From: Chitinophagales bacterium
GTDB taxonomy: Bacteria > Bacteroidota > Bacteroidia > Chitinophagales > CAIOSU01
Assembly: GCA_026003335.1 (NCBI GenBank)
Contig: BPHB01000002.1
Coordinates: 248,001 to 312,000, forward strand
DNA: 64,000 nucleotides
Direction of reading: 5' to 3'
Part shown: in pieces, positions 1,308 to 44,108 of the stretch
Layout: each line of letters begins with the position of its first letter
Position numbering within the stretch: position 1 is the stretch's first letter
Notes under the pieces: model-generated
Seen by the model: only the letters and a program-made list of their open reading frames with translations
The model's database searches: none
Told to the model about the DNA's origin: nothing
Translations under genes and position numbers: made by a program

Positions 1308-4300
1308 TCAACGCGCCAGATACATTTTACCGAATCCACGATGAAAGTATTTGTCAATTCCGGCTTCGCTGCGATGCTTGATAGGCTCGCCATCAATTTT
1401 AGCCACCACCCGGTAGAGATATAAACCGTTAGCCAGAGGATCACCAAACGCATCGGTACCATCCCATGCATATTCGGTTATATTTCTCCCCACACGGATA
1501 GGGCCAAGCTCAGCTTGTGTCAGTTCGCGAACCACTTTACCCGAAACAGTCAGTATCTGAATTTTAAAAAAGTCAGGAGGCCGGCTGCCGGTGAGTGTAA
1601 ATACAAAGCGCGTGGAGGAAGTAAACGGATTAGGATAATTCAAAACGTGAGAAATGGTAGACTCATTTATTACTTCAAACGAAATGCGGTAATCGATGCC
1701 ATCTTTCAGGCCATAGGTTCCTGAAATATTACGGCTGCGGTCTTTAGCCTGCACCAGCATGGTGTAAACGCCATCTTTGTCAAAAGTCTTGTTGATTACC
1801 ACGCGGGCGGTATTGTCACTTCCCGATATGGAAGGATAAAACTTCATGATTACCCCGTCATATTGCATTTTTTCCTGATTACCTTGCTCATCAATGAAAA
1901 TCACATGAATCAGATCATTGGTATCCAGCAATAGATAAGGATTCTCATCTTTCAGCATGATTTGAATTTCAGGCCGGGCAGATACTATGTCTCCGTCCAT
2001 AATATGTATTCCATCAAAGGTAACATCCAGTATGGGATTTATTTTATCCCTGCCCATTCCGAAAGTAAGGATACCAATGTTGTTATAATGAAACTGCTCG
2101 GGCTGGTCATTATCGGGATTGGCTTCTATAATAAGGGTATTGAGTTCACCCAAACAGTCACAATCGGTGTTGAAAGACCAGTTCAGCTGCATTGTTTGCA
2201 GCGCCCGAAGAGAATCATACCTGACATATTCCACCACGGGTGATTTGCCGGTGCTGAGTAACGTATACTTTACCAGTAGACTATCCATAGACACATCCGT
2301 AACGTTGGTAATGGCTACCGACAGGTTCAGGTAATCACCCAGGTTGAGGGTATCATTAAAAGAGAAGTGAATATTGGGGCTTAAAGCGGCCTCCGGCACT
2401 TTCTTGTAAAGAATTCTCCAGTAGTCAAGCTGGGAAGGAGTACGCGATGAGTCATCTTCAGCATCCAGCTCCAGTTTGATAAACGGGTACATGGACGCCT
2501 GGATAAAGTCAATCATAGTATCCAGAGCTTGCATGCCACGGTATATTTCGGTTTCCAGGCCGTTATAGTCCAAGCCGATAATACGCAGTTGCTGATTATC
2601 AAAGGAGGGGCTTTCCAGATGATGATATTTCCAGTGAGCGCTATGCCATTCGGTTGCCGGCCCGATAGCAGGAGTCAGAATTTTCCCTCTGTTCCAGGTA
2701 GCCGTAAAGCTGACAGAAAACGTCAGGATATCAGTTTTGCTGTATCCTCGTTTTTCCTGTGTCAGGGAAGGATTTCCTTTCTGCGTAAAGAAAACCCAGG
2801 GAGCGCTGCCATTGCAGCTGGTACAGGCAAGGCTATCAATAAGCGTGGAGCCCAGATTTCTGAATGCATTTACAAGATCGGGTATCCAGTCGGAATAAGC
2901 CGGGCGATTGACACTGTAAGCAAGAATATAAAAACCATTAGGCACACTGTCCAGAAACTGAACAATTTTATTCATGTAACATTGATTCGATGAGTTATTG
3001 ATGCCGGCAGTGGGGAAGTCAAAAGCAAAAAGGTCACGAAACTTGCAATGGATATTTCCATAGCGTTGATTTATTGCATAGCCGGAGCATCCTCCGGAGC
3101 TCGTACGGTCAGTCAGTTTACTCACCCAGGGCTCACCGGTAAGGGAATCAAAAACGGCAATCACAATGCCGTTGTCAAAACCTCCTGTTCCTCCACAGTT
3201 CCAGCGATGTTTCAGCCCATCATTCATGTGATAAGCAATCTGATCGGCAGGAACACTTCCTCCGTAAAATGTTGCAGTACCTGTTTTGACAGAGATGGTT
3301 TTCAGGTCGCCTACAAACTTGAATTGCCGGTCGTTATCCACATACATGTTTGTATAACCGTCTTTCAGAAATTGATAATAGTGCGATTGATTCCACCCCG
3401 GATATTCATCTTTCAGGTAAATAAAAGAGCTGTTGTTCCACTTCTGATTCCCCCCGTTGGAAGAAGGATCAGGCCCAACTCTCCAGTAATACACCACGCT
3501 ATCCTGGAGGGTCAGGGGGGGGGTCCATTGGAGCAAACCTCCGGTTGAAAGGATGGGTGCAGAAGTTTTTTTCACAGGGCTGTTAAATAATTCCGTAGTG
3601 TCTATTTCCATAAGATAGGCACGCTGGGAACCAAAAGCGGTTGCTGTGGAGGCATAAAGCGTTACCGGTTGTGTCGGCACAATAGCAAACTCATAGGGTT
3701 GAATCGGAAAAGCATCTGAAGAAGTAATGTTCAGCGCGATATCCAGCAGTTCATTATTGGTTTCGGAGAGTTCAGCAATTTCACCCACACCGCCTTCAAT
3801 ACAAGGGTTGCCGTTTTCAGGATCTACTTTAACGCAGAAGCGATTTAACCCGAAAGCCTTGATGTCACCGGTAGGTATGGTAAACACCACTGTGTCTCTG
3901 AATAGCGTAGCCCTGATGCGTTTTACATAGGAAACACTGCCGTCTTCCGGATTTGGGAAGGTCCGGCTTACTACAACATCCAGGCTGTCATGTGTGGCTT
4001 TACCCAGGTTGGTAATCACTACTTTCAGGTCAAAGGAGGAGAGATTAGCGTTCACCAGAGGCGGGTCAAAAAAGACGGTTTGCGGCTCAATGACATAATC
4101 GGGTTTCGCATGGGGATTGATTTTTAGTCCCGGATCACCATGCAGGGTCATTTCTTCGGCTACAGCCTTTGTTATGGGGTCAAGCCCGATGGTTTCAATA
4201 TCATTGATTGCTCCTTTAATGGAGCCTCCCAGTGTACCATGATAATTTTTATAACCGATATTACGATAGAAAGCCTCCGAGAACCGATTTAATCCCTGAT

Positions 4301-6497
4301 CAGAAGAAAGACCGATAGTGGAAACAAATGCTATGGCTGCTTTTCGGGGAGTCAGTACAAAGTCTTCGCTTATGAGTGTATCCGGATAACTGGGATTAAA
4401 AATATTGCCGGTATAGCAGCCATTGGAAAGGATGATTGGATATTTTTCAAAGTTGCGATAATCGTCCGGGTCATCAATGGCTATGTCAAAGGAGTTGGCC
4501 GAAGAGTGCCCGAAAAAAGTGATAAGCGATACGCCCGAATTAATCAGGTCGCGGATAAAATCCGACTGCACAATTTCAATAGGGGTGGTTGTGGTCTTGT
4601 AAAAGGAATACACTTTGGCGCCATAGAGGGTATCTTCAATAATGTTTTTATAATTTTCCAGAAAGCTTCTATACCTTGCCTGTTGGGAGGATTCCTCTCC
4701 TCCGCCCATGTGCAACACGCGTTTCATCCACTCTTTTTTGGCGATGGTCTGATGCGGATCCCTTTCCTGATTATCCTGCTGCCAGAATTCATATGCTTTA
4801 ACTTTTTCAAGGTAATCATTTATCTGCGAGCCTTTGTCCACCGAAAGGCGCCCCACGGCCACACGCGGAACAATGGATTGGTTGGTAGCCGCCAGCAGAA
4901 TATCGGATCCGGGAGTGCCAAAAGTGGGAATGAGGCATTGGTTTAAAGCATCATTAGCTCCGGAACCTATGCGCATGGCAGGGTATTCCCGCCCCTTCCC
5001 GATAAGGAAGAGAAGCTGCGGCCGTATGCTCCAGTTATCTATGGCATAGGAAATAAAGTTGCGAATGGCAAGGGGATGCTTTTTTACCCCAAACGCAAAT
5101 TGATCATAGAGCTCATCTATATCCACCAGAGCCACCTCGTGGCCGCCCCCTTCCTGGCTTTCCCGATACTTGGCATAGGCGCTCACATAATCATTGCCAT
5201 TGCCATCGTCACGAAGAGAGGAATGACTGATAATAATATAATCGCCCTGCAAGCCAGGGTTGAGGTAGTTGACAAAGAATTTTTGCTGCATGCTGGTAAT
5301 CGTACCAATATCTGAGGTTGACTGGCTGGTCAGCAACAGTTCACGCGCTCCGCTATTGGCTACAGCAGGCAGTTTAAACTGCAATGGAACACTCTGGCTG
5401 CCCACAATGCGGATATTATTCGTCAGGTCATACAATATCGGATCGGTATTCTTGAAATTAAATGCATTGATTTTTACATAGCGCTCTCCGCTTTTAGGTA
5501 TCAATGTCATGTAAACCTTTGATTCGTTGGTGGAGAATATGAACTGCCGGGGATAAATCAGCTCAGCATAACAAAGAACATTTCGGTCAACCGAGCCGGT
5601 GCCTTTACCTTCAGCTTTAAAAATCATCCAGCTGGCAAGCTGTCCGTTGGGCACTGTCAGACTGAATTTATTCAGTGAAAAGCCTGTAAACTGAGTGTCC
5701 ACCAACGCCAAATTATTCACGCTGAAAACCAGCCTATGCGGGGTATTTGAGATGCTGATAGCCGAAATATTCAATGTGGCGTTTACATTGCCGGTGTAAA
5801 TTGCCGCGGGTGCAAGATTGAATGATAAAGGCTGTAACCCACTTCCGCTGCCAAACAGCGAGCCATACCCTTCTCCAAGCGCAAAAGCAGATTCATATAC
5901 CGGGTCGCCACTGGGATAAAGAAAAGCGGCCGGCTTTCCGTTGCTGAAGCCCTGAGCATCAATAAGACGCAGGTAGTCTTCTACCCGATAGAGATGATAA
6001 GGCTCCTCCTGCGGCAGGTTATTAAGATTATTCGCACGATTGTCAAAAAATTTCCCCGCAACCGCCACATCCCATGTAAGGTAGAGCGAGAAAGAATCAC
6101 GGAACAGGCTCAGGTAGGGATTGGGCTGATGACTCGGATCGCTATACAGATGCGCATCCAGCTCACCGCCCGGATCACGGGCATAAAACTCCAGATATTC
6201 TCCTGCAGCATCAATGAGGTTATTGCCATTGATGTCATGGAAATAAATAGGCACAGGCTGACCGTATTGAAACAATACAAACCGCTCTGATTTTACCACC
6301 GAAGCGTCTACCTGATAATCGGTGTTGAGTTTTTGAAAGGTAGAATACGGAATCCGGTATATTCCTTTGGAAGGCACTTTGAATTTGTAGTACGCCTTGC
6401 CGTACTCAATCCATTCATTGTTATACTGAGCCTCTGCAGTAGCCACAAAGACTGCTGTTAGAAGAAAGATAGCGATTACACTGCTTAAAAAGCGCAT
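1308..6497 (-). CDS. PorU-like type IX secretion C25 peptidase/sortase (PorU2-type)
   Basis: A 1729-residue exported protein with a clear signal peptide (FLLTAVFVATAEAQ). A peptidase C25 (gingipain/PorU) domain lies around residues 420-770: the likely catalytic His is in 'LITFFGHSSANSF' near residue 664 and the likely Cys in 'ILSNGCYTG' near residue 694. PorU removes T9SS sorting domains and attaches substrates to the surface. The usual PorU is about 1100-1300 residues; here about 950 residues follow the protease domain, with beta-sandwich-like modules, and the end (from 'LNYPNPFTSSTRFVF') is a FlgD-like T9SS sorting domain. That architecture resembles proteins annotated PorU2. It lies 3 bases after the PorV-family gene, so the two surely work together. 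Whether it is the main sortase or a second, specialised one is not decided by the sequence. Confidence 0.82.
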   Translation of the reverse strand: MRFLSSVIAIFLLTAVFVATAEAQYNNEWIEYGKAYYKFKVPSKGIYRIPYSTFQKLNTDYQVDASVVKSERFVLFQYGQPVPIYFHDINGNNLIDAAGEYLEFYARDPGGELDAHLYSDPSHQPNPYLSLFRDSFSLYLTWDVAVAGKFFDNRANNLNNLPQEEPYHLYRVEDYLRLIDAQGFSNGKPAAFLYPSGDPVYESAFALGEGYGSLFGSGSGLQPLSFNLAPAAIYTGNVNATLNISAISISNTPHRLVFSVNNLALVDTQFTGFSLNKFSLTVPNGQLASWMIFKAEGKGTGSVDRNVLCYAELIYPRQFIFSTNESKVYMTLIPKSGERYVKINAFNFKNTDPILYDLTNNIRIVGSQSVPLQFKLPAVANSGARELLLTSQSTSDIGTITSMQQKFFVNYLNPGLQGDYIIISHSSLRDDGNGNDYVSAYAKYRESQEGGGHEVALVDIDELYDQFAFGVKKHPLAIRNFISYAIDNWSIRPQLLFLIGKGREYPAMRIGSGANDALNQCLIPTFGTPGSDILLAATNQSIVPRVAVGRLSVDKGSQINDYLEKVKAYEFWQQDNQERDPHQTIAKKEWMKRVLHMGGGEESSQQARYRSFLENYKNIIEDTLYGAKVYSFYKTTTTPIEIVQSDFIRDLINSGVSLITFFGHSSANSFDIAIDDPDDYRNFEKYPIILSNGCYTGNIFNPSYPDTLISEDFVLTPRKAAIAFVSTIGLSSDQGLNRFSEAFYRNIGYKNYHGTLGGSIKGAINDIETIGLDPITKAVAEEMTLHGDPGLKINPHAKPDYVIEPQTVFFDPPLVNANLSSFDLKVVITNLGKATHDSLDVVVSRTFPNPEDGSVSYVKRIRATLFRDTVVFTIPTGDIKAFGLNRFCVKVDPENGNPCIEGGVGEIAELSETNNELLDIALNITSSDAFPIQPYEFAIVPTQPVTLYASTATAFGSQRAYLMEIDTTELFNSPVKKTSAPILSTGGLLQWTPPLTLQDSVVYYWRVGPDPSSNGGNQKWNNSSFIYLKDEYPGWNQSHYYQFLKDGYTNMYVDNDRQFKFVGDLKTISVKTGTATFYGGSVPADQIAYHMNDGLKHRWNCGGTGGFDNGIVIAVFDSLTGEPWVSKLTDRTSSGGCSGYAINQRYGNIHCKFRDLFAFDFPTAGINNSSNQCYMNKIVQFLDSVPNGFYILAYSVNRPAYSDWIPDLVNAFRNLGSTLIDSLACTSCNGSAPWVFFTQKGNPSLTQEKRGYSKTDILTFSVSFTATWNRGKILTPAIGPATEWHSAHWKYHHLESPSFDNQQLRIIGLDYNGLETEIYRGMQALDTMIDFIQASMYPFIKLELDAEDDSSRTPSQLDYWRILYKKVPEAALSPNIHFSFNDTLNLGDYLNLSVAITNVTDVSMDSLLVKYTLLSTGKSPVVEYVRYDSLRALQTMQLNWSFNTDCDCLGELNTLIIEANPDNDQPEQFHYNNIGILTFGMGRDKINPILDVTFDGIHIMDGDIVSARPEIQIMLKDENPYLLLDTNDLIHVIFIDEQGNQEKMQYDGVIMKFYPSISGSDNTARVVINKTFDKDGVYTMLVQAKDRSRNISGTYGLKDGIDYRISFEVINESTISHVLNYPNPFTSSTRFVFTLTGSRPPDFFKIQILTVSGKVVRELTQAELGPIRVGRNITEYAWDGTDAFGDPLANGLYLYRVVAKIDGEPIKHRSEAGIDKYFHRGFGKMYLAR

Positions 6498-6500
6498 CGT

Positions 6501-7595
6501 TTAATTTTTCTTCTTTGGCTTTGGAATACCTAAATGCAATGAAACCACATGCGAATACAGGGCATCAGACTGATTGCCTATATCGGTAAATGCATAATCT
6601 ACTCCAAAAGATTTTATCTGCAGGCCAATGCCAATGTTGGGCTGAAAAGTGGTGATGGCCTTGCCATCATCATCTGTTGACTTTTGAATATTGCCAATAC
6701 CGGCACGCAAATAAACCAAACGGTTATAGTTAAGTTCCAGTCCGAATCGAGGATCAAAACTGACCGCATTGGTGCGAATGGGTACATTTCTTTTTTTATC
6801 CGTGGTCATCTCCACATCCAGCTCGGGCAGAATGAAAAAGCGGTTGCGTATATTAAACTCATAAGCCGCTCCAACGATGAATTTTGGTACGGTAATTTCC
6901 AGCGAGTTTTCGGGGATGACATTATCCGTTTTTGTAAGTATTTCCTTCTCCCGCTCTGTAAAGCTAAATGACCAAGCATTAAAGGTGCCGCTTACATCCC
7001 GGGCCATAATGCCCAAACGCCACTGCTTGATATCCATGGTAGCTGACAAATCAAGACCAAAACCCCAGGCTGTAGCAAAATCACCGGCTATGCGATAGAT
7101 AACCTTTACGTTACCTCCCAGAGCCAGATGCGTTTCCCTTATCTTAAGCTTCTGCGCATAAGAGAGCATAAACGCCCAGTCAGCCACTGAGAAGGACTGC
7201 ACATTATCGTAATTAATAGAGCCGTCATCTTCAAAAAGCTCCAGCGTGTTAGGGATGTCATCCACACCAAAGCGTATGAAAGAAAATCCTAAAAAACGAT
7301 GGTAATCCTGCAAAGGCACAGCCACTCCTACATAGTCATATTTTGCAATGCCGGCAAAGTATTCTGCGTGCATAGCAGCAATGTCTACTACGGAGCGGAT
7401 ACGTGTCAAAGAGGAGGGGTTCCAATAAGTGGCTGTTGCATCGCTCACAGTAGCAACCTGAGCGGAAGATAATGCCAGGCCACGGGCTCCAACGCCAATA
7501 TCCAGAAATGCATTGCTATACTTTCTTACCTGTGAAAAAAGAGTATGGGCCATCATTAAACAACAGGCCATCACAATCAAACGAGTGGGTTTCAT
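6501..7595 (-). CDS. PorV-family type IX secretion outer-membrane protein (PorV2-like)
   Basis: A 364-residue protein with a signal peptide ending near 'LFSQ'. The start of the mature part, 'GVGARGLALSSAQVATVSDATATYWNPSSL', carries the FadL/PorV-family pattern of small residues and W-N-P. Alternating hydrophobic strands continue to the C-terminus, as expected for an outer-membrane barrel of about 14 strands. PorV proteins act as shuttles that carry T9SS substrates to the PorU sortase. Placement directly before a PorU-like gene, with only 3 bases between, supports that partnership. PorQ or a PorP-like protein are less likely because of the PorU neighbour. Confidence 0.82.
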   Translation of the reverse strand: MKPTRLIVMACCLMMAHTLFSQVRKYSNAFLDIGVGARGLALSSAQVATVSDATATYWNPSSLTRIRSVVDIAAMHAEYFAGIAKYDYVGVAVPLQDYHRFLGFSFIRFGVDDIPNTLELFEDDGSINYDNVQSFSVADWAFMLSYAQKLKIRETHLALGGNVKVIYRIAGDFATAWGFGLDLSATMDIKQWRLGIMARDVSGTFNAWSFSFTEREKEILTKTDNVIPENSLEITVPKFIVGAAYEFNIRNRFFILPELDVEMTTDKKRNVPIRTNAVSFDPRFGLELNYNRLVYLRAGIGNIQKSTDDDGKAITTFQPNIGIGLQIKSFGVDYAFTDIGNQSDALYSHVVSLHLGIPKPKKKN

Positions 7596-7615
7596 CTATG
7601 AGCGATCTGTCTGTT

Positions 7616-8344
7616 TTACGAATATCCGGGTTCAAGTCTTTTGCGCATCTGCTCCAGGCATGCATCCAACTGTCCTGTATATAAACCTTCTACATTTTCC
7701 GTCAATGCCATCAGCAGGTCGCGCTCTATCCAGTTTACCTCTACCGGATTTACTCTTGAATAAATCCGCAACAACGCTGCAATAAAAAATTCATTATCCG
7801 GCAGTCTGATAAGATGCCTTGCCGTGCTAAACCTATTAAAGTTATGTAAAAAATCAGTACTTATCTCCTGCCTGCCAATGACGCACAGATATGCCGCAAC
7901 TTCCTCCCCTCTTACCGCCTGCAGGTCGTCATACATTGATACGGGAAGGGCCGGATAAAGTTTAATCAGCCTGCGATCAAGCAATAGTTCCAGAAAAATA
8001 TGCGCAAGAAAATAGGCTCTCTTACGCAGGCAGGAAATATCCACCATCAGCAGTTGGGTTTTTATCGTTGCACACAGCTCACGGAATAGTTCACTGTTGT
8101 GAAACAACGCATCGGCCTGATAATGTTTTCGGATTCCGCAATACAGATTATAGAGGTTATCCTGCACAGGCACCTGCGCAAAAACAGCTCTTCTGATCTT
8201 TCGGTTAAAATCCGGAATAAGGTCAGGAAAGAGCACCCCCAGCTTGAAATAAGGGGATGCATGATTGCGGTCAAAATAGTAATGCGATAGCAGGTGCATG
8301 CTAAGTATTAAAAGTAGCAATTTTGCAAGCGACCTGTGGGTCAT
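7616..8344 (-). CDS. conserved protein of unknown function, helical, His/Asp-rich
   Basis: 242 residues, function not recognised. The N-terminus is hydrophobic ('LAKLLLLILSMHLLSHYYFD') and is followed by 'GVLFPDLIPDFNRK' and a scattered set of His and Asp residues ('KHYQADALFHN', 'LAHIFLELLLDRRL'). This arrangement loosely recalls the acyl-carrier-protein phosphodiesterase (AcpH/HD-like) helical fold, but no diagnostic motif is complete, so that is only a suggestion. The gene is divergent from tyrS with 27 bases between the start codons, and the tyrS -35-like element lies inside its first codons. It ends 20 bases before the PorV-family gene and could be cotranscribed with it. Confidence 0.6.
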   Translation of the reverse strand: MTHRSLAKLLLLILSMHLLSHYYFDRNHASPYFKLGVLFPDLIPDFNRKIRRAVFAQVPVQDNLYNLYCGIRKHYQADALFHNSELFRELCATIKTQLLMVDISCLRKRAYFLAHIFLELLLDRRLIKLYPALPVSMYDDLQAVRGEEVAAYLCVIGRQEISTDFLHNFNRFSTARHLIRLPDNEFFIAALLRIYSRVNPVEVNWIERDLLMALTENVEGLYTGQLDACLEQMRKRLEPGYS

Positions 8345-8351
8345 ATCTTTG
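8321..8351 (+). promoter_or_regulatory. Bacteroidota-type promoter of tyrS
   Basis: TTTTG at 8321-8325, an 18-base spacer and TATCTTTG at 8344-8351 match the Bacteroidota housekeeping promoter (TTTG, 17-23 bases, TAnnTTTG) exactly. Transcription would start some 12-17 bases before the tyrS ATG at 8372. The promoter overlaps the start of the divergent gene. Confidence 0.65.
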
Positions 8352-8371
8352 TTAAAAGCATATTTTCAAAT

Positions 8372-9649
8372 ATGGATTTTATTGCTGAGCTGCGCTGGCG
8401 TGGATTGTTTTTTGACATGATACCCGGCACAGACAAACTCTTACGCGAAAACTTTGTTGCCGGCTATATAGGCTTTGACCCATCGGCTCCTTCACTGGGT
8501 ATAGGCAATCTGGTGCAGATCATGCTGCTCCGCTTTTTTCAAAATGCAGGGCATCGTCCCGTAGCTGTTCTGGGTGGAGCTACAGGTATGATAGGCGATC
8601 CGTCCGGCAAGTCTGCCGAGCGCAACCTGCTGTCAAAAGAAACCCTGCTGGAAAATAAAGAACGCTTTAAAAAAGAACTTTCCCGCTTTATTGCCTTTGG
8701 CACAGGCAAAAACGACCCGCTGTTGCTGGATAACTACAGCTGGTATAAAGACTTTAGCCTTCTTGACTTCCTGCGTGACATCGGTAAGCATATACCAGTG
8801 AACTACATGCTTTCCAAAGACTCTGTAAAGTCTCGTATGGAAACCGGCATTTCTTTTACAGAATTTTCCTATCAGTTGCTACAGGCTTATGATTTTTACT
8901 GGCTTTTTACTCACCACGGAGTACGTCTGCAGATGGGGGGCTCAGATCAGTGGGGCAACATCACCACTGGAGTGGAACTCATCAGGCGACTGACCGGTGA
9001 GAATGCGTATGCGATTACTTCTCCGCTGATCACCAAACCTGATGGTACCAAGTTTGGCAAAACCGAGCAGGGCAATATTTTCCTTAACCCGGAACTTACT
9101 TCACCCTATCGTTTCTATCAGTTCTGGATAAATGTATCAGACGAGGAGGCTGAGAAGTACATTAAAATATTTACCTTCCTGAGCCGTGAAGTGATTGAGG
9201 AGCTTATCAGGGAACATCGCGCTGCTCCACATCAAAGAATTTTGCAAAAAGAATTAGCGCGTTCAGTAACAACCCTGGTGCATTCAGAAGAGGATTATCA
9301 TAAAGCAGTGCAGGCAAGTGAAATTTTATTCGGCAAGGGTACGCAGGATGTCCTTCAGTCTCTGTCAGAGAAAGAGCTTCTGGATATATTTGATGGAGTA
9401 CCCTTGTTTGAGGTGCCTGCTGGATTGTTTGATACTGGCACGCAACTCATTGACCTGCTGACCGAACATGCTGCTGTCTTTCCCTCCAGGAGCGAAGTCA
9501 GGCGTATCCTCCGGGAAGGCGGCCTGAGTATCAATAAAGAGAAAATGCATGATGAACACCGGCTGTTTACACGCAACGATCTACTCAACGAAAAATACCT
9601 GCTGATACAAAAAGGAAAGAAAAATTATTTTCTCATCGTGGCCCACTAA
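8372..9649 (+). CDS. tyrS: tyrosyl-tRNA synthetase
   Basis: Charges tRNA-Tyr with tyrosine in the cytoplasm. The reading frame opens at a GTG at 8336, but the ATG at 8372 follows the promoter and gives a normal 425-residue bacterial TyrRS. The class I Rossmann domain starts near residue 30 ('GYIGFDPSAPS'); the HIGH-box equivalent is 'SLGIGN' (residues 41-46) and the KMSKS equivalent is 'KFGKT' near residue 227. 'GGSDQWGNI' is the tyrosine/ATP pocket signature. An S4 RNA-binding domain closes the protein ('SRSEVRRILREGGLSIN'). The HIGH box has Gly and Asn at the two His places, a variation tolerated in this enzyme family. Confidence 0.96.
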   Translation: MDFIAELRWRGLFFDMIPGTDKLLRENFVAGYIGFDPSAPSLGIGNLVQIMLLRFFQNAGHRPVAVLGGATGMIGDPSGKSAERNLLSKETLLENKERFKKELSRFIAFGTGKNDPLLLDNYSWYKDFSLLDFLRDIGKHIPVNYMLSKDSVKSRMETGISFTEFSYQLLQAYDFYWLFTHHGVRLQMGGSDQWGNITTGVELIRRLTGENAYAITSPLITKPDGTKFGKTEQGNIFLNPELTSPYRFYQFWINVSDEEAEKYIKIFTFLSREVIEELIREHRAAPHQRILQKELARSVTTLVHSEEDYHKAVQASEILFGKGTQDVLQSLSEKELLDIFDGVPLFEVPAGLFDTGTQLIDLLTEHAAVFPSRSEVRRILREGGLSINKEKMHDEHRLFTRNDLLNEKYLLIQKGKKNYFLIVAH

Positions 9650-35336: not shown

Positions 35337-35548
35337 TTATGACATATAATTTTCATCCGTGTGCCATTTTAATGGATTATTGATGATGTATTGCCGAATG
35401 GCATGCCATGCATCCCCATTGCGGATAATGCGTTCGTAATAATTACGTTGCCACAATTTGCCGTCAAACGGTTTCATCCATTGTTTTTAACATTACGGAT
35501 GTCTTCATTGGTGGTCATGGTTTTAAACCACCGGATAATATCCCGTAG

Positions 35549-35570
35549 GGGCGAACCTACGTGTTCGCCC
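35549..35570. repeat. hairpin inside the RAYT frame
   Basis: GGGCGAAC (35549-35556) and GTTCGCCC (35563-35570) form a perfect 8-bp stem with loop CTACGT. The form, beginning GTAGGGG, is that of a REP-like palindrome, and it lies inside the coding sequence. Confidence 0.6.
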
Positions 35571-35590
35571 GGTGTGTGTTCGCCCGGTGT
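35561..35590. repeat. 15-bp exact tandem duplication in the RAYT frame
   Basis: GTGTTCGCCCGGTGT occurs twice in direct succession (35561-35575 and 35576-35590). The length keeps the reading frame and gives the repeated peptide TPGEH-TPGEH. The unit contains the right arm of the neighbouring hairpin. Confidence 0.7.
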
Positions 35591-35608
35591 GTTTTTATTT
35601 TCAATGGG

Positions 35609-35641
35609 GCAGGGGCAGAAACGCAGGTCTGCCCCTGCGTT
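35609..35641. repeat. second hairpin inside the RAYT frame, with alternative pairing
   Basis: GCAGGGGCAG (35609-35618) pairs perfectly with CTGCCCCTGC (35629-35638). A competing stem, AACGCAGG (35620-35627) with CCTGCGTT (35634-35641), shares the right arm, so the two structures exclude each other. Confidence 0.55.
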
Positions 35642-35898
35642 AATGACGATGCAATGCATGTGATTGGGCATTATGATGTATTGGTCGCATTGGATATCGG
35701 GAAATTTGTTCAACCATTCGAAATACCATTTTTCAACCATTTTTCCCGCATCGTTTCATATCATTTTGCCTTCTATCACATTGCCAAATAAACACGCCCG
35801 GTTTTGGGTGCACAGGGTGATAAAATACGCCCCCGCCCGGGAATAATCATAGCCTTTTAACCAAATGGAACGCCTGTGGTAGATGTGGGGATTGTATT

Positions 35899-36093
35899 TC
35901 ATTTCCCTTCTTCTATGATTTTTATTTCCTCCGGGGTTAATGCATACAATTGATAAACCAACCTATCTATTTCACGCTCCCACACACTCGTATCTGCTTG
36001 CGGATTGGATGTTGAGCCTGCCGAAGCATCAGTGGCAAGGATTTTATCCACTAGTGACACGATTTGTTGGACAATCAACTGGTCAGCATAATC
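35899..36093 (-). pseudogene. 3' remnant of a restriction-modification specificity/methylase gene
   Basis: Between the DUF3800-like gene and the transposase the minus strand encodes a 64-residue tail: 'DYADQLIVQQIVSLVDKILAT', then 'NPQADTSVWEREIDRLVYQLY' and 'ALTPEEIKIIEGK' before a TGA. The combination 'LVDKIL', 'EIDRLVY.LY.LT.EEI.I.EG' is the characteristic end of target-recognition regions in many type IIG and type I R-M proteins of Bacteroidota. There is no start codon and nothing upstream to complete it, so it is the stump of a deleted second enzyme; the neighbouring methyltransferase already has its own C-terminus. Its stop overlaps the RAYT ATG. Confidence 0.65.
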
Positions 36094-36101
36094 TAATTTA
36101 T

Positions 36102-37037
36102 TTAAAAATCAAAAGTCAATTGCCTAGAACTATCTTCTACATATTTCAATTTCCGATATGTATAAAATTGATTTTGATAACGTTTTGGATCATCAATAGT
36201 TGTTTTCTCTTTTGGGAAAAAATTTATCATTATTCTATTGGTATATTTATAAGAACTATTGATATTCTTAGGTTCTTTAATCATTCGTTGAACAAGAGGT
36301 AGGATAAGGTCAATTAATTCCTTCCTGTACTGGGCTCGGTTACTCAATTCCAGACCGTGAATGATAGTAGTAACAGCACCCATAAAACAATCACATAATT
36401 GAACTAAATTTGATCTTTCATCTATAGTATGGTTTTTTTGTAAAAACTCAATTTCTGATGTCTTAAAAACAAATTTTGGTTCCTCATTTTGTAACCTAAA
36501 TATAGCGTGCCAAGGGAAATATTGATGATGTTGTTGTTGCCCTTGTTCATGGTAGATATTTTTAATCACAATTTTTTGGTCACCAAAGAAAGACTTAAGT
36601 GCATATTTTATTGCACTTCTAAAAAAACGATTATACATTGAATTGAATTCATTATCTGTATCGAATTCTTCTTTATTTAAGTAACTATCATTTAGACCAA
36701 GAATATAACTGTAGAACCTTTCAGAACTTTTTGCTGGATTTAAAATATATTCAAACCACCTTTTGCAAATATTTTTTTCATCAGCGGATTTTATATCAAC
36801 CCAATGGATAATTTGATTGTTCTTTTCATAGTATGGAGATTTTTTGTCAAAGTTATTGCGAAATCTCTCATTAATAATATCTAACAATAACGGTTTGCCT
36901 ACGTTTTCAACAATAATTCCAATATAATTCCAATAAGTATTTGTAAAAGGACACTTTTTTGACATGATTTCATCTGCATAGATGTTTACTTCTACGCTTT
37001 TTTCTTTTATTTCATTTCCAAAAAGGTCTTTATTCAT
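36102..37037 (-). CDS. DUF3800-like protein (probable RNase H-fold)
   Basis: 311 residues, not firmly recognised. The pattern 'VNIYADEIM' near the N-terminus, a central segment, and 'RSNLVQLCDCFMGAVTTI' near the C-terminus follow the DUF3800 plan, in which an early acidic 'Y.DE' and a late 'QLAD...GA' are conserved and may belong to an RNase H-like catalytic site. DUF3800 genes often lie in defence islands. Base composition is markedly more A/T-rich than the flanking housekeeping genes. It lies 9 bases after the end of the methyltransferase gene, so it may be cotranscribed and act with it. The role is unknown. Confidence 0.5.
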   Translation of the reverse strand: MNKDLFGNEIKEKSVEVNIYADEIMSKKCPFTNTYWNYIGIIVENVGKPLLLDIINERFRNNFDKKSPYYEKNNQIIHWVDIKSADEKNICKRWFEYILNPAKSSERFYSYILGLNDSYLNKEEFDTDNEFNSMYNRFFRSAIKYALKSFFGDQKIVIKNIYHEQGQQQHHQYFPWHAIFRLQNEEPKFVFKTSEIEFLQKNHTIDERSNLVQLCDCFMGAVTTIIHGLELSNRAQYRKELIDLILPLVQRMIKEPKNINSSYKYTNRIMINFFPKEKTTIDDPKRYQNQFYTYRKLKYVEDSSRQLTFDF

Positions 37038-37046
37038 AGTTATTCT

Positions 37047-37670
37047 TCATTTCAACCCATACATCTCCAACACTCTTTCATCCAACTCCCTCTGTATCTC
37101 ATCAAGTTTTGCCTCTGCTTGTTGCTCGCTTAATTTACCTGCAAACTTTTGCCTTTGTACCTGTACCGCACGGTTAAATATCCCCTCAAATTCTTTTAAT
37201 TGATTTAGTGTGGGAATTATAATCGGGAATTCCTTTGCATCACCTGTTGTAAGATGGTGTGAAACATTTATAAAATCCATTCTATAATTACCAAAAAATT
37301 CTGTATTTAATAAACAAATTAAAAAATAGTCATTCGCTAATTCAGGAATTAAAGAAATAAACGTCATTGCTTCTGTTGAATGAACCGACTTTTCTTTTAA
37401 TCTACATTTTATCTTTTCATCAGATAAAACATTATTCCAGCAAAAACCCTCACGAAAGTAAAATTGTGGATTACGACCAACGGGCATTCCTTCTCCTTTT
37501 TTACCCGAATTTTCTTTTAGAAATTTCACATTTTCCCTGCTCCAGTCAATATAGTAAGGTGTGGGGGCATACCAGCGGTTGCCGTCTTTGTCGCCTTTGT
37601 CGTAAGGGACAAAGGTTTTTTTGCCTGTAATTCCGTTAAGTTTTTCGTTATCGGTAAGATTGTATCTACA
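37047..37670 (-). pseudogene. C-terminal (target recognition) part of the type IIG-like methyltransferase, separated by a frameshift
   Basis: This frame continues the methyltransferase after the break: 'RYNLTDNEKLNGITGKKT', 'GNRWYAPTPYYIDWSREN', 'MPVGRNPQFYFREGFCWNN', then a helical tail 'GKLSEQQAEAKLDEIQREL' and 'DERVLEMYGLK'. These are typical of the DNA target-recognition region that follows Eco57I-type methylases. The first possible start codon (GTG at 37529) lies well inside the domain, so the piece is unlikely to be made alone. Restoring one base near 37662-37672 would fuse it to the upstream frame. Confidence 0.75.
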
Positions 37671-40600
37671 TCGGCTATTTCATCAGGGCTTACAATGCGG
37701 TATAGCCAGCCCTGTCCAAATACATCACGGCCGTATTGTTCTTTCAAATCATCAAAAAGTTGGTGTATTTCTTTTTCGTTTAAATTATGCAGGAATGTTT
37801 GTGCATCGGCTTTGTTTTTTATGTTTTTTGTTTTACAAAATTGAGTTGCCAGCAAAAGTTTTACGGGTCTTTGTTTACGCACATTATCCGCCCATTTGGT
37901 GCCTTCTAATACGCCAATGTATTTACCATTGTTGCCTGTTTGAATACCCACTCCCCCTTCTGTAATTAAGCCAAGCAGGGTAATATGGCCGGGTTTCAGG
38001 GATTTGCGGTAGTTTTCCAGTTCTCTTTTATGTTTTTCAATGTTCTTACTGGTAGATATTTTATCCCACCATTGGTTCAGTAATTCATTTACTTTTGTTC
38101 CCAAGTGTTTGTAAATTTTTTTGTTAAAGTCGGTAGGAATAAAAAATACCTGGTTAGGGGCATTGGCATAATCTGCTTGTGGGATAGTGAATTTTTCGGG
38201 GTTTTGCAGGTCTTTTTTTCCATCTAAAAACAGGACGGTGTGCTGATGATGGGCTTTATTTTTTTGAGCAATTGCCACACAGGTATCTACCATAGCATTT
38301 TCAAAAGGGTTGGCTGTATCAAAGAGCGTAAGTAAAGTATTATTCAGCAGTAAATGTCGTAAGTTCTTTTTGGTTTGGATGGTCCAAAAGGTTTTGGAAG
38401 TAATAAAAGCGAGTATGCCTTTGTGTTTAAGTAGTTCAAAGGATTTAAAGAAGAAGTGATTGTAAGTATCATCGGCAAATCCGTAATGTTTTTCAAATTG
38501 TTTTTTGGTTTCGCTATCTACACCTTTGGTAGAAATATAAGGCGGGTTGCCGATTACAATATCAAAGCCGCCATCATCATTCACTAAATAAGGGTTGAGC
38601 ACTTCGGGAAAATCCAGTTTCCAGTCGAAATGTTTAAAAGGTGCTTCTTTGTTTTGTTTGAGTTTTTGCAGTTTGGCAATGGCGTTTTTCCAACCTTGGG
38701 TTTGTAGCCATAATTCCATCAGTGCAGATACTTTTCTACCGCTTTGGGTGGGCTTGTTTTCCAAACCTTTGGTTTTTATCATCAGTTCCAACTGGTTGAT
38801 GAGAATATCTATTTTGAGATTTCTGATTTCATCGGCTAATTGCTGTTTTTCGGTGGCATGAAAATAGTCCCGCTGTTTTTCTGTAATTTTTTTGAGCAGT
38901 GCTTGCCTTCTTAATACGTTCTCGTTGCCAAACAAATGGCCTTGTGTGCCTTCTTTTATTTCCCAATCAATTTCAATAACTTCGTCTTCAAACTTGCTCA
39001 CCAAGCTGTTGCCAACTACAATTTTGTAATCCAGATTGGGCAAGGCTTTGGGTTTTTCTTCGTCCACTACTAAGCTCAGCCAAAACCGCAAACGGGCAAT
39101 GTCCACCGCACCTTTTTCAATATCCACACCATAGATAGAGTTTTGGATGATGTTTTCTTTTACCTCTGCCGGGTTCCAGGGCTGCCGGAGTTCGTAGGCA
39201 ATTACTTCTTTTATGGCATGTATTTCTTGCAACAAACCCATTGGGAAAGCACCCGAACCAATGGCAGGGTCGCAGATTTTTACTGCATTGAGTTTTCCAT
39301 CTATGTAGCGTAATTGATGTTCTGAAAGTAGAGAAGCATCTTTGTATTTGATTAGCCGCTCAACCCCTTGTCCAAAATTTCCCTCCGTAGGAGGGGCCAG
39401 GGGAGGTTCATCCCCCTCTGTTGGAGGGGTACCCGAAAGGGCGGGGTGGTCAAACAACATTTCCATCACAGCATCTAAATTTTTCAGCACCTCTTCTGCC
39501 CGAATATGTATAGTTGTTAAACCTAAGCTCTGCAAATAGGCATCTCTTTCAGCATCGTATTCTACTTTATCGTTATGACTACTTCCGTCAATCTCAATAA
39601 CTACATTACAATTTCCACAGTAAAAGTCAACAATGTAATTGCCGATAATTTTTTGTCTGTCAAAGTCAAAACCTTTGAACTGTTTATTTTTTACTCTGTT
39701 CCAAAAAAGAACTTCTGCAAGATTTCCGGCTTTACGGAGTGCTTTTGCGTATTCTTTTAATTTAGGGTTGTAAGGGAGGCTAAAGTAGTTTTGAGAGGCT
39801 CTTTTTACCACCCCGCCAGACGATGTCTGACCCCCCTCCTTTGGAGGGGAATTTTTGAGGTATTCCGTTAAACTCTCCTGACACATGTAATGCACAATTT
39901 CCTTGGGGGTGTAAAACGCACCTTTGTCTTTGTTGTCTTCCAGCAGGTTTTCAAAAATATGCCCGAGCATTTCGGGGTCAACGGCTACGGTGTGGTCGTC
40001 CGGGCTGTCTTCATACACGGTGAAGTTGTAGGCATTGAGAAAATCCAGAAAGCCCCGGTCTTCGGGTTGCTCCATTTTTTCAATATCAGCAAACAGTTTG
40101 GGCGGAAAAGTCAGCATATCCCCTTTCCGGTGGATGATTTCGTCCATTTCATCGCGCACAAACAAACCGCCATTGAGGAAGGGAATTTTGACGGTTTCAC
40201 CCCAGGGTGTTTGCCAGTCATCGTTTGGTCTTTGTTTGTTGAGGGCCTCAAAAAACAATGCGCTCAGTGCAAAAGGGAAAAAGGCTTCATTCCCACCGGT
40301 TTTTTTAAATAATTGATAGATGAAATCGTGGGGGCCGTCTTTGTATTCTGTGGTGGTAGCTCCCAGCCAGCGCTTCTTTTGCACAAAATAAAGGAAGATG
40401 ATGCGCCCCATGAGTTTTTTGATGAAGTCGCGGGCTTTCTTCTCATCACCATTAAAAACGGATTTTAAAAAAGGGCTGGGTTGGGAGGTTTGTTTTTCTT
40501 CCCATCTGCTGCCGTTTTTCACCATGCGTTTACCGGTAAGGTATTCTACAAAACGTTGATAATGCTCTTTGTACTCATCAAAAAATGCCTTGCTCAATTT

Positions 40601-40864
40601 TTCAACAGAGAAGGCGTCAATGAGGGTTTGCAGGTTTTTTTCAGGAGCAAGAGACAGTACTTCCATGCGTTCGGCCATGGTGCGGTTTGGCCTGTCCTTC
40701 TCCACGAGGTAGGTGTAGCGTTGCGGATGGGTTTGGGTTTCTTTTATGCCTTGTTTTGTTATTTTACTGTCGCGGGCAACCAGGGTGAACCGCCACATAT
40801 CGTTGGTAACCGGTGAGATGAAATTGATTACAGCTGCCTGTCCGGGTAGAAGGAGTTTCCGCAC
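37526..40864 (-). CDS. type IIG-like (Eco57I-family) adenine-specific DNA methyltransferase, 5'-truncated and 3'-frameshifted, with inserted DUF559 nuclease
   Basis: A restriction-modification enzyme of 1112 residues in this frame. A helical region comes first, with 'DKGAFYTPKEIVHYMCQESLTEY' around residue 325; then the inserted DUF559 nuclease (about residues 337-497); then the methylase: motif I 'KICDPAIGSGAFPMG' and motif IV 'FDIVIGNPPYIS', the N6-adenine type. The start is a GTG at 40864 and the protein begins directly with 'GQAAVINFISPVTNDMWRFTL', which in relatives is preceded by roughly 100 residues; these are absent, so the gene seems 5'-truncated. The frame is lost near 37670 and ends in a nonsense tail at 37526. 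Activity is therefore doubtful, although the methylase core is intact. Confidence 0.82.
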   Translation of the reverse strand: MRKLLLPGQAAVINFISPVTNDMWRFTLVARDSKITKQGIKETQTHPQRYTYLVEKDRPNRTMAERMEVLSLAPEKNLQTLIDAFSVEKLSKAFFDEYKEHYQRFVEYLTGKRMVKNGSRWEEKQTSQPSPFLKSVFNGDEKKARDFIKKLMGRIIFLYFVQKKRWLGATTTEYKDGPHDFIYQLFKKTGGNEAFFPFALSALFFEALNKQRPNDDWQTPWGETVKIPFLNGGLFVRDEMDEIIHRKGDMLTFPPKLFADIEKMEQPEDRGFLDFLNAYNFTVYEDSPDDHTVAVDPEMLGHIFENLLEDNKDKGAFYTPKEIVHYMCQESLTEYLKNSPPKEGGQTSSGGVVKRASQNYFSLPYNPKLKEYAKALRKAGNLAEVLFWNRVKNKQFKGFDFDRQKIIGNYIVDFYCGNCNVVIEIDGSSHNDKVEYDAERDAYLQSLGLTTIHIRAEEVLKNLDAVMEMLFDHPALSGTPPTEGDEPPLAPPTEGNFGQGVERLIKYKDASLLSEHQLRYIDGKLNAVKICDPAIGSGAFPMGLLQEIHAIKEVIAYELRQPWNPAEVKENIIQNSIYGVDIEKGAVDIARLRFWLSLVVDEEKPKALPNLDYKIVVGNSLVSKFEDEVIEIDWEIKEGTQGHLFGNENVLRRQALLKKITEKQRDYFHATEKQQLADEIRNLKIDILINQLELMIKTKGLENKPTQSGRKVSALMELWLQTQGWKNAIAKLQKLKQNKEAPFKHFDWKLDFPEVLNPYLVNDDGGFDIVIGNPPYISTKGVDSETKKQFEKHYGFADDTYNHFFFKSFELLKHKGILAFITSKTFWTIQTKKNLRHLLLNNTLLTLFDTANPFENAMVDTCVAIAQKNKAHHQHTVLFLDGKKDLQNPEKFTIPQADYANAPNQVFFIPTDFNKKIYKHLGTKVNELLNQWWDKISTSKNIEKHKRELENYRKSLKPGHITLLGLITEGGVGIQTGNNGKYIGVLEGTKWADNVRKQRPVKLLLATQFCKTKNIKNKADAQTFLHNLNEKEIHQLFDDLKEQYGRDVFGQGWLYRIVSPDEIADVDTILPITKNLTELQAKKPLSLTTKATKTATAGMPPHLTILTGAGKM
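39381..39429. repeat. double hairpin at the left end of the DUF559 cassette
   Basis: Two palindromes in succession: CCCTCC-GTA-GGAGGG (39381-39395) and CCCCTC-TGTTG-GAGGGG (39413-39429). The first is the near-inverse of the palindrome at the right end. Translated, they read as Pro/Gly/Glu-rich linkers. Confidence 0.65.
39833..39849. repeat. hairpin at the right end of the DUF559 cassette
   Basis: CCCCTCC-TTT-GGAGGGG is a perfect 7-bp stem with a three-base loop, next to the point where the methyltransferase sequence resumes ('QESLTEYLKN'). Confidence 0.65.
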
Positions 40865-41469
40865 GTATTGCTGAATAGCAAGTTATGATATAGCAAGGTG
40901 ATTATGCCCTTCCTCCTTCCTGCCTCTTCCCACGGATATGCTATCACTATCAAAAGCCTTCTCTTCTTTTTTCTGTTGCAGCAACTCTCTTTTGCGGGCG
41001 CTGACCAGAAGGGGCAGGTCAATCCTGCTCTTACAGGTTGTTGCTTTCAGCATTGGCAGTGCTTTGTTTTTCAGAGCATCCTTGCCAAGAGCCTGAAGTT
41101 CCAATCCTGCGCTTTATCTGTTGTGCCAAGACCTCCTGAAGCCTCCTTGACACGGCAAGAATACTTTTCAAAATCCAGGTTTAAGGGTTGCCCGGAGAGT
41201 CCGATAGTTTGCTTCATTCATGCTCTTGCGCAGCCCTGTATCCCGTGGAGAGTACAACATCATGCTGTATCTTCATTCATCAGGGGCCGCTGCTGATGCA
41301 CGGTTGCAACACTTGTGGTATGGGCGCCTGACTTACGGATACCGCGGCTTCCGCATATCGGGTAAGCCACTGCTCACAAAACAGGACTACGCCAGCATGG
41401 CCGGTAAAAATCTATCAGGCGGGAGTTGTTGCTGCATTTTAATTTGGGAGCATCTTTAGTTTTTGCATT
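40865..41469. other. 605-base stretch without a recognisable gene upstream of the methyltransferase
   Basis: Several short frames cross here on both strands (for example 40898-41296 plus and 41220-41459 plus), but none shows a known domain or a plausible start. The missing N-terminus of the methyltransferase family is not found in any frame. It is probably the scar of the deletion or insertion that truncated that gene. Confidence 0.5.
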
Positions 41470-41991
41470 ATGAAACTGCACCTGCTGCTGTTTAGCCTGC
41501 TTGTTGCTTCCCCGGCATTAGCTCAGGGAGCATCCTTACTTGCACATAACAGAGACGGGCTTACTCAAGTTTCAACTGACCATAGCGGTGTTTCCGTTGA
41601 AACCCGCATCACCGTGGAAAAAGCAGAAAGTCAGGCTAAAATCATCTTCTACCAGGAAACGGATAATGGCTTTATTTTTCAACGCATCAACTGGAAAAAA
41701 AAGGTACTTATAGAGCTGGATAATGGCGCTACGCTGCTTCTGACGAATCTTGCCGAACAGGGGCATGCCATACAACCGGGTGGCTATATCACGGGTTACT
41801 ACATTCCCGACAGGTATCAGCGCTACACGGCATTCTGGCTCTCACCCCAGGACATAAGCCTGCTGAAGCAATACAAAGTCAGAGGTATCATGTACTCGCT
41901 GGATGACCCCTACGATGCGCAACCCTATCGTATTGTAATCCCCGACAGCACGCACGAACTGAAACAAGAGCTGACACTGCTAGGGTTCTGA
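41470..41991 (+). CDS. exported protein of unknown function
   Basis: 173 residues with a textbook signal peptide (residues 1-18, ending 'SPALAQ'). The mature part is beta-rich with a basic and aromatic middle ('ETDNGFIFQRINWKKKVLIEL') and no Cys. No family was recognised; the spread of strands suggests a single beta-sandwich or lipocalin-like sheet. It lies between the accessory region and the BatA-like operon and starts 68 bases before it. Confidence 0.65.
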   Translation: MKLHLLLFSLLVASPALAQGASLLAHNRDGLTQVSTDHSGVSVETRITVEKAESQAKIIFYQETDNGFIFQRINWKKKVLIELDNGATLLLTNLAEQGHAIQPGGYITGYYIPDRYQRYTAFWLSPQDISLLKQYKVRGIMYSLDDPYDAQPYRIVIPDSTHELKQELTLLGF

Positions 41992-42083
41992 ACAACGGCT
42001 TCGGCTTGTGTGCGAATGTTAAAAGTTACTGACCTGCATATACGGCCCACAGCAGGTGCATGAATAAATCATATTTTTGCCGC

Positions 42084-44108
42084 ATGGCTTTTGAGCACCC
42101 GTGGGTTTTATGGGCATTAACCCTGACGGCTATTCCTGTCATCATCCACCTTTTTAATTTTCGCAGACACAAAACTGTATACTTTACCAATGTCCGTTTT
42201 TTAAAAGAAGTCACCGAAGAAACAGCAGTGCGTTCCAAATTAAAGCATCTGCTGGTACTGTTGGCACGCCTGCTGACCATCATCTTTATCGTTTTGGCTT
42301 TTGCGCGACCTGTTATTCCCGGAAAAGACAGCTCCTCTGCGGCTGCAGAAACAAAATCCGTATCGGTGTATATAGACAACTCGTTCAGCATGAGTGCCGA
42401 ATATGAAGGAGAGCGGCTGCTTGACCGTGCGATAAGAAAATGCCGGGAGATCGTAGATGCCTATGAGGCAAGCACACGTTTTCAACTTGTCACTAATGAG
42501 CTGACCTCCCGCCAGCGTCATTATGTATCCAAAGAAGAATTTCTGAGCCTGCTGGATGAAGTACAACCTTCCTCATTCGTACGCAAGCATAGTGCAATTT
42601 ATTCCTGGCAGATGCGCACTGCTGCCGATGCCGGAGCGCTGCATGTTTCGGCATTCTGGATTTCTGATTTTCAGAAAAATCAAAGCGACTTCAAAGGAGA
42701 TACTTCTTTGGCGCTTTACCTTTTTCCGCTAAATGCTGACAGACAGGACAACGTGTATATTGACACTGCATGGCTGAACCAACCGGCAGTATATCCCAAC
42801 AGAACCGTTACCGTATTTGTCAGGATAGTGAATACTGCCAAACGACCGGTTGAAAATTCCAGAATGACCCTGTCTGTGGATAATCAGGTGAAAGCCATAG
42901 CCGATTATAGCGTGCCTGCGGCATCTTACACCGTGGATACACTCAACTTCATGGTCAGGGACACCGGCTGGAAGAGAACAGAAATCAGCATTACGGATTA
43001 TCCCGTTACTTTTGATGACAAGTTCTTCCTTGTGCTCAGGGTAACCGGAGTGGTTCCGGTGCTGGCAGTGTATGAGGCCATACCCAGCCGCTATCTGGAC
43101 GCCCTTTTCCAGAACACTGAATCTTTTTCGTTTGAAAACCGCCAGGTCAATCAGCTGGATTACTCCAGGTTGGACCGGCATAACCTGATTATATTAAGTA
43201 ACCTTACAGCCATTCCTTCAGGTATGGCTTCCATACTGGAACAATATGTTAAGAACGGGGGCAGCCTGCTGATTTTTCCAGCAAAAACTATCAGCGTAGG
43301 CAGTTACAATTCATTTCTATCCATGTTGGGGGCAGGTACTCTCGGTGAATTACAAACCTCTGAGCAGCCGGTAACCGAACTCAACCGGGAGCACGAAATT
43401 TTTTATGATGTGTTTGAAGAAATACCCAAAAACATTTCGCTGCCGATAGTGAAAGCTTATTATCCTGTTCAAAAGAAAACCCGCAGCAGTCAGCAGGTGC
43501 TGCTCGGGCTGAGAAACAGAAGTCCCTTTCTGAGCCAGTTTGAATACGGGCAGGGGAAAATTTACCTGTGCGCTGCTCCCCTGGATGAAAAACTCACGGA
43601 TTTCCCGCTGCATGCACTGTTTGTACCCCTGTTATACAATATGGCATTAACCGGCAAAACATTTTCCAAGGCGGCCTATGTAATAGGCAAAGATGAAGTG
43701 ATAGAAATAGACAACCGGCTGCGAGGTAATGACCTCATTTTTAAAATCCGTGGAGGCAACAGCGAATTTATACCCAGACAGAAAGCTGCAGGCCCTAAAA
43801 TGCTTATCTTCCCCGGTGAGGAAATCACACAAGCCGGATTTTATACTATCTATACGGAGGATGACAAAGAGGGTGACGTGATTGCCATGAACTACAACCG
43901 GGAAGAGTCCCTTCCTGAATTTTACAGTGCACCGGAACTAAAAGACCTTTACCCTCAGCGCAACATCCAGGTGATTCAGGCGGTTAATGCGAACGCTTCT
44001 GCTGTGGTCAAAGAGCTGCAAGAAGGAGTTGCCCTATGGAAACTTTGTATTATTTTAGCCCTTGTTTTCATGGGCGCAGAGGCCGTATTGCTTAGATTTC
44101 TGCGCTGA
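42084..44108 (+). CDS. BatA-domain membrane protein with von Willebrand A-like module
   Basis: The ATG at 42084 gives 'MAFEHPWVLWALTLTAIPVIIHLF', the standard BatA N-terminus; the ATG at 42060 would add eight residues. Two membrane helices (residues 6-25 and about 55-75) with the 'FTNVRFLKEV' signature are followed by 'SVYIDNSFSMSAE', the first motif of a von Willebrand A domain (DxSxS), then a long extracytoplasmic region and a last helix at the C-terminus. BatA-type proteins work with MoxR ATPases in envelope stress functions. It heads an operon with the dihydroorotase homologue, DUF4199 and a glycosyltransferase, an arrangement familiar from Bacteroidota. Confidence 0.85.
   Translation: MAFEHPWVLWALTLTAIPVIIHLFNFRRHKTVYFTNVRFLKEVTEETAVRSKLKHLLVLLARLLTIIFIVLAFARPVIPGKDSSSAAAETKSVSVYIDNSFSMSAEYEGERLLDRAIRKCREIVDAYEASTRFQLVTNELTSRQRHYVSKEEFLSLLDEVQPSSFVRKHSAIYSWQMRTAADAGALHVSAFWISDFQKNQSDFKGDTSLALYLFPLNADRQDNVYIDTAWLNQPAVYPNRTVTVFVRIVNTAKRPVENSRMTLSVDNQVKAIADYSVPAASYTVDTLNFMVRDTGWKRTEISITDYPVTFDDKFFLVLRVTGVVPVLAVYEAIPSRYLDALFQNTESFSFENRQVNQLDYSRLDRHNLIILSNLTAIPSGMASILEQYVKNGGSLLIFPAKTISVGSYNSFLSMLGAGTLGELQTSEQPVTELNREHEIFYDVFEEIPKNISLPIVKAYYPVQKKTRSSQQVLLGLRNRSPFLSQFEYGQGKIYLCAAPLDEKLTDFPLHALFVPLLYNMALTGKTFSKAAYVIGKDEVIEIDNRLRGNDLIFKIRGGNSEFIPRQKAAGPKMLIFPGEEITQAGFYTIYTEDDKEGDVIAMNYNREESLPEFYSAPELKDLYPQRNIQVIQAVNANASAVVKELQEGVALWKLCIILALVFMGAEAVLLRFLR

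Follow-up and report, generated by a model that had tools for sequence, protein, structure and literature searches.

A DUF559 cassette inside a DNA methyltransferase gene

The window (the whole 64-kb stretch of DNA that was analysed) carries on its minus strand a methyltransferase gene in which a short block, composed of a DUF559 nuclease domain bounded by inverted hairpin repeats, is embedded in frame (Table 1). Pfam searches assign DUF559 to residues 368–470 of the open reading frame (ORF) (3.9e-30; 104 bits against a cut-off of 20.6) and Eco57I/N6_Mtase to the ORF outside this segment. The N-terminus of the methyltransferase is approximately 70 to 115 residues shorter than those of its homologues, and no match to the missing residues was found upstream in any frame (window positions 40864–41450); this upstream DNA has a rearranged appearance. 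The gene is also frameshifted near its C-terminus, with the break lying within window positions 37047–37630. Phase variation, decay or a sequencing error may each have caused the break near the A7 tract, and the methylase of the source genome could be decayed or phase-variable, the cassette itself being intact.

Table 1. Features of the host gene, the cassette and their surroundings (window coordinates).
Feature	Position	Strand	Remarks
Decayed RAYT/Y1-like ORF	35350-35850	-	motif MPNHMHCIV; stop codons; tandem TPGEH repeat near palindromic DNA
Probable C-terminal part of host methyltransferase, different frame	37047..37529	-	shifted-frame translation continues the protein; inferred
Host ORF	37526..40864	-	1112 aa, GTG start; Eco57I/type IIG-like N6-adenine DNA methyltransferase, cassette in frame
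A7 homopolymer (T7 on + strand)	37616..37622	-	likely frameshift site; role inferred
Whole element (hairpin, DUF559, hairpins)	39371..39858	-	repeat-to-repeat edges
3' terminal repeat	39371..39454	-	inner arm ACCACCCCGCC; hairpin CCCCTC-GAGGGG; second hairpin unit ending GGAGGGAAATTTT
DUF559 (PF04480), Vsr-like/EDxHD nuclease domain	39455..39763	-	E48, D77, E88, D90, H94, D101 (cassette numbering)
5' terminal repeat	39803..39858	-	hairpin TTCCCCTCC-AAA-GGAGGGG; second hairpin CAGAC-ATC-GTCTG; third arm GGCGGGGTGGT
In-frame GTG in third arm	39811-39809	-	possible internal start for a free nuclease; start use inferred
Outer inverted repeat	39371-39396 / 39833-39858		26 nt, 85% complementary
Inner inverted repeat	39440-39450 / 39807-39817		perfect, 11 bp; GGCGGGGTGGT / ACCACCCCGCC

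The outer pair of repeats has a score of 32, which none of 20,000 shuffles reached; scanning across the entire 64-kb window revealed no second pair of such geometry and spacing. On folding, the 5' end of the cassette forms a double hairpin (-10.7 kcal/mol, z -3.9); the two hairpin units of the right end are weaker (z -1.8 and -1.3). The terminal repeats contain no stop codon in the frame used and are translated as flexible Pro/Gly-rich linkers, the 5' repeat reading NSPPKEGGQTSSGGVV. In three other copies (L365, L369 and L384, the last from the cultured carrier Maribacter sp. 4G9), the left hairpin is read as FPSxGGVxxxRGG, as against NSPPxEGxxxxGVV in the window; the repeat is thus open in two frames. 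An AAGGAGG-like stretch in the hairpin precedes the in-frame GTG, and an internal start at this codon, whose use is inferred, remains a possibility. The source genome harbors no other copy of the cassette, which thus gives no sign of activity there.

A preliminary description made from the sequence alone had placed the edges at 39374 and 39856; the repeats point instead to the limits given in Table 1. Its claims of near-inverted hairpin ends with an inner 11-bp perfect inverted repeat, of a DUF559 cassette in frame inside a DNA methyltransferase, of a complete set of the expected catalytic residues and of a host protein recognisable on both sides (insert-free homologues align across the block) all held. 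It had also regarded the hairpin ends as harmless Pro/Gly-rich linkers, and the linker part of this claim held, the repeats being stop-free and predicted to be disordered. Its statement that no start codon precedes the nuclease core is not strictly true, given the in-frame GTG.

The nuclease domain

The window cassette has the full set of EDxHD/PD-(D/E)XK residues, and the six residues listed in Table 1 are conserved in all 48 intragenic cores. The dN/dS ratio of the core is 0.03–0.11, for those pairs alone in which dS could be estimated. A model of the nuclease has a pLDDT of about 90 in its core; Foldseek returns NGO0050 and the homing endonuclease I-Bth0305I as the nearest structures (3hrl, 1.9e-6; 3r3p, 6e-4) and Vsr as a weaker match (E 0.13), and a sequence-profile match to the EDxHD homing endonuclease I-Bth0305I was also obtained (E 0.002). 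By fold and catalytic residues, the domain thus meets the criteria of the EDxHD/Vsr-like superfamily; its cleavage activity is inferred. A full-length model, modest in quality (mean pLDDT 59.6), shows DUF559 as a domain of its own, with unstructured linkers, the counterparts of the hairpins, on either side.

One rival explanation is that the block is an intein or an intron whose splicing part was overlooked. In its favor, a DUF559 domain was found within a DnaE intein, and in cyanobacteria, too, the family has been met in the context of an intein (PMC9403480). Against it, no splicing domain is present in the window protein or, DnaE excepted, in any other host ORF scanned with Pfam, and the flanks are hairpin-encoded Pro/Gly linkers predicted to be disordered; this explanation is all but excluded. 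For an intron, there was no Rfam match in 36000–43000. A phage origin was also rejected, with just two weak matches among 50,697 phage records.

Filled, empty and mini alleles

At 18 of the 19 homologous loci compared with the window methyltransferase, among them a same-genome paralogue (L113), no DUF559 domain is found at the position of the cassette, and in insert-free homologues the host sequence runs on at both sides. The same loop is occupied by a different DUF559 cassette in one homologue (L105), and by a cassette of the window subfamily in a Paludibacter metagenome-assembled genome (MAG; L364); in another homologue (L102), the loop is longer and has no DUF559. A site in HsdR is empty in most homologues and filled in four (L452, L453, L456 and L457), and filled and empty alleles also exist among related genomes in IleRS, LeuRS and UvrA; the coexistence of filled and empty alleles, one criterion for a homing endonuclease, is thus met at the methyltransferase, HsdR, IleRS, LeuRS and UvrA sites. 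The UvrA site is empty in three genomes (G121, G141 and G145), holds a mini insert in a fourth (G109) and a full insert in a fifth (G137), the mini and full inserts sharing the left junction AATAC|AGCCCC. Inserts take the place of a few codons in a short variable loop, and no target-site duplication was seen by eye in the aligned UvrA, IleRS, HsdR and methyltransferase alleles. As no duplication is seen and a loop of several codons is replaced, precise transposition is not demonstrated. At the IleRS site (that of L178), odd Pro/Gly-rich loops, such as GKGGPQAPGGVTGPPFG, are present in L132 (genome G178) and L133 (genome G103); these may be remnants of lost inserts.

An ordinary domain fusion, in which DUF559 would work as the nuclease domain of an enzyme for restriction-modification, is a second rival. 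The window subfamily is indeed concentrated in restriction-modification genes, and fusions of nucleases with methylases are common in type IIG enzymes. This explanation is nevertheless very improbable: most methyltransferase homologues have no DUF559, the same architecture recurs in UvrA, MetH, MnmE, IleRS, LeuRS and adenine deaminase, and the hairpin ends are common to different hosts.

Relatives and host genes

Relatives occur in 111 of 299 genomes of the order, and approximately 47 of about 157 listed matches, counted by hand from the table of matches, sit in open frames of at least 400 residues. Family searches identify as hosts UvrA, MetH, IleRS, LeuRS, adenine deaminase, HsdR and MnmE, together with a MeaB-type mutase GTPase, an MmeI-like methylase, an M23 peptidase and a DnaE intein; other hosts were named only by reading the translation. 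The domain lies at a terminal position in TrpA, ArgB and RecQ (N-terminal) and in HemE (C-terminal), also identified by family search; these four cases could represent neighbouring ORFs read through and are given less weight than internal inserts. In the DnaE case (L044, genome G218, 3223–9006, minus strand), a nuclease of the same family is contained in a splicing element.

The window subfamily is found in frame in methyltransferase (L364), HsdR, type III Mod-like and type ISP-like genes, the last two names resting on reading the sequence, and also as stand-alone copies. Its members, about 60–75% identical and mostly from MAGs, come from Bacteroidota, Clostridia, Chlorobiota, Kapaibacteria and others. 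On a plasmid of Sphingomonas parapaucimobilis (L466, 1501–1950), a stand-alone DUF559 gene with near-perfect inverted ends sits between sufB and sufC, and a Synechocystis plasmid copy has the same layout with weaker repeats; the layout thus exists beyond Bacteroidota. In an Azospirillum copy, the right end was not clear.

Terminal repeats and hairpin-only copies

Matched inverted ends, whose presence on each copy is a criterion for transposons, are carried by most of these elements. Among 115 distinct elements, the inverted-repeat score between an element's own upstream and downstream ends averages 38.6, as against 18.6 in mismatched pairs, and matched terminal repeats, defined as those above the 99th percentile of shuffles, are present in 82 elements (37 of the 47 copies inside genes and 45 of the 68 that stand alone), as against 10% of cross pairs. 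This sample is not random, as matches in long frames were fetched first. The criterion is met both by this set and by the window copy, with the shuffle result given above.

The hairpin GCCCCCWAACCCCCRAAGGGGG reaches 43 copies per genome in one family (f9), and its reversed control gives no match. Genome G109 has such copies, either single or as inverted pairs, within ORFs that include IleRS, UvrA, a MurC-like protein and a mutase, most of these names coming from a reading of the sequence. Over the 299 genomes, DUF559 is present in 19 of the 29 with one chosen palindrome pattern and in 92 of the 270 without it (p 0.002); this association is confounded by relatedness and concerns a single pattern. 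At one HsdR locus (L074; G033:C17:218390-225107), 14 copies of a hairpin unit lie within about 7 kb, with a period of 42 nt where they are in tandem, and some are in frame in HsdR.

The most serious rival holds that an enzyme other than DUF559, for instance a RAYT/Y1 transposase, moves the hairpins as REP- or MITE-like repeats, with DUF559 as cargo or as a resident that benefits. Several observations favor it: Y1_Tnp was found in 33 of 35 genomes tested, intragenic REPs without DUF559 have been described (PMC3733652), the decayed RAYT-like ORF of Table 1 lies about 3.5 kb from the window cassette, and seven f9 genomes with DUF559 are devoid of the particular palindrome tested. Against it, palindrome counts track DUF559 counts (rho 0.58) more closely than Y1 counts (0.45), the partial correlation being 0.04 for Y1 given DUF559 and 0.41 for DUF559 given Y1; these values are correlations only, drawn from 30 related genomes. 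Moreover, the terminal repeats match each nuclease copy, and a passive cargo would not be expected to show the purifying selection seen in the core. The REP/RAYT criterion of an HUH Y1 transposase between the repeats is not met, the enzyme there being DUF559. This rival is judged unlikely but is not excluded.

Evidence on mobility

In a tree of cassettes, built from few columns and with many forks unresolved, the window copy groups with two HsdR-borne cassettes and one stand-alone cassette (SH-aLRT 99), and the L105 cassette, which occupies the same methylase loop, is placed far away. LeuRS genes have flanks that are 89–92% identical and cassettes that cannot be aligned; nearly identical host genes thus hold different cassettes at one site. 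In two pairs (L045/L046 and L063/L066), the synonymous divergence (pS) of the cassette, 0.306 and 0.443, is below that of every host window (minimum 0.344 and 0.540, respectively), which suggests transfer after the hosts split. It lies within the host-window range in L060/L069 and above all host windows in three other pairs, an excess that relaxed codon constraint could equally produce. LeuRS and IleRS cassettes cluster by site in the tree; this may also fit vertical inheritance followed by loss.

The preliminary description had proposed homing-like spread of a mobile element, which would have been refuted had all close homologues of the methyltransferase contained the same domain at the same place or had DUF559 units never been found with these hairpins elsewhere. 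Neither outcome occurred: methyltransferases without the cassette are the majority, and hairpin-DUF559-hairpin units were found in many unrelated genes and as stand-alone copies, which supports the mobile-element reading. Homing-like spread fits the repeated use of identical sites in IleRS, LeuRS, UvrA and HsdR, transposition and cleavage being inferred; the target duplication that was to be looked for was not found, a short loop being replaced instead. The mobility of the hairpin-DUF559 element is well supported, with the proviso that movement, cleavage and expression are all inferred.

Proposed mode of propagation

The block is most probably a small, non-splicing, in-frame, homing-like selfish element, consisting of a Vsr-like DUF559 nuclease between inverted hairpin repeats, whose mode of movement is inferred. 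As the stop-free repeats are read as flexible Pro/Gly-rich linkers, such an element can occupy loops of working proteins without splicing. Translated either within the host protein, as one of its domains, or from the internal GTG, the nuclease would cut the empty allele or recognise the hairpin ends; the cassette would then spread when the break is repaired from the filled allele (homing). Occasional ectopic insertion, together with loss of the nuclease core, would leave hairpin-only mini-elements dependent on a nuclease supplied in trans. It counts against the homing reading that DUF559 is without the DNA-binding modules of known homing endonucleases, which leaves target specificity unexplained. 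A bolder reading, slightly less likely than not, would see here a pan-bacterial class of mobile elements that are autonomous, inserted in frame and not spliced; their Vsr-like nuclease would move its own hairpin ends, and hairpin-only derivatives, into coding sequence and stay as a permanent extra domain of essential host enzymes.

Comparison with known systems

Searches of the open-licence PubMed Central literature found no account of a mobile element made of DUF559 and hairpin ends, and no paper joining DUF559, hairpin ends and non-spliced in-frame insertion; an earlier report elsewhere is not excluded. The presence of related modules within many unrelated, even essential, bacterial genes points to a largely unrecognised form of gene-invading mobile DNA. 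If so, it would tie DUF559, a widespread nuclease family without assigned function, to palindromic repeats within genes for which no mover is known. It would also imply that selfish nucleases can inhabit essential proteins without splicing through ends read as harmless linkers, and would offer a testable source of new enzyme loops and domains.

Rickettsia palindromic elements (RPEs) and intragenic REP/CGTC repeats are already known to insert in frame into protein genes, including uvrA, dnaE and tRNA synthetase genes, keeping the ORF without splicing (PMC3733652), and CGTC REPs are said to have no dedicated transposase (PMC3733652). The window element meets the RPE criterion of an in-frame palindromic insert in a protein gene, without kinship to RPEs by sequence being implied; unlike it, these repeats have no nuclease gene described in them. 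REP-RAYT (REPtron) and TIRtron systems likewise place an enzyme gene between inverted palindromes, and further palindromes, solo or paired, are scattered over the genome. In comparison, the element type described here uses a Vsr-like nuclease instead of an HUH tyrosine transposase, and its copies persist within coding sequence.

The nuclease shares its broad fold with the Vsr very-short-patch repair endonuclease; unlike Vsr, it is not linked here to a cytosine methylase or to mismatch repair, and it sits in unrelated genes. EDxHD homing endonucleases, known from introns and inteins (PMC3943268, PMC9403480), are closer: the EDxHD label has been given to DUF559 in connection with a cyanobacterial intein (PMC3943268, PMC9403480), I-Bth0305I (PMC3943268) is, with NGO0050, the nearest solved fold, and the distribution is homing-like in both. 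These enzymes are bound to self-splicing introns or inteins and possess extra DNA-binding regions, whereas the window element has a catalytic domain only, hairpin ends and no splicing part. An association with a self-splicing intron or intein, customary for homing endonucleases but no strict requirement, is absent from it. Full-length DUF559 inteins, such as that of the essential DnaE, resemble the window element in placing a nuclease in frame inside a host gene; the DnaE intein retains its splicing blocks, and the window element has none.
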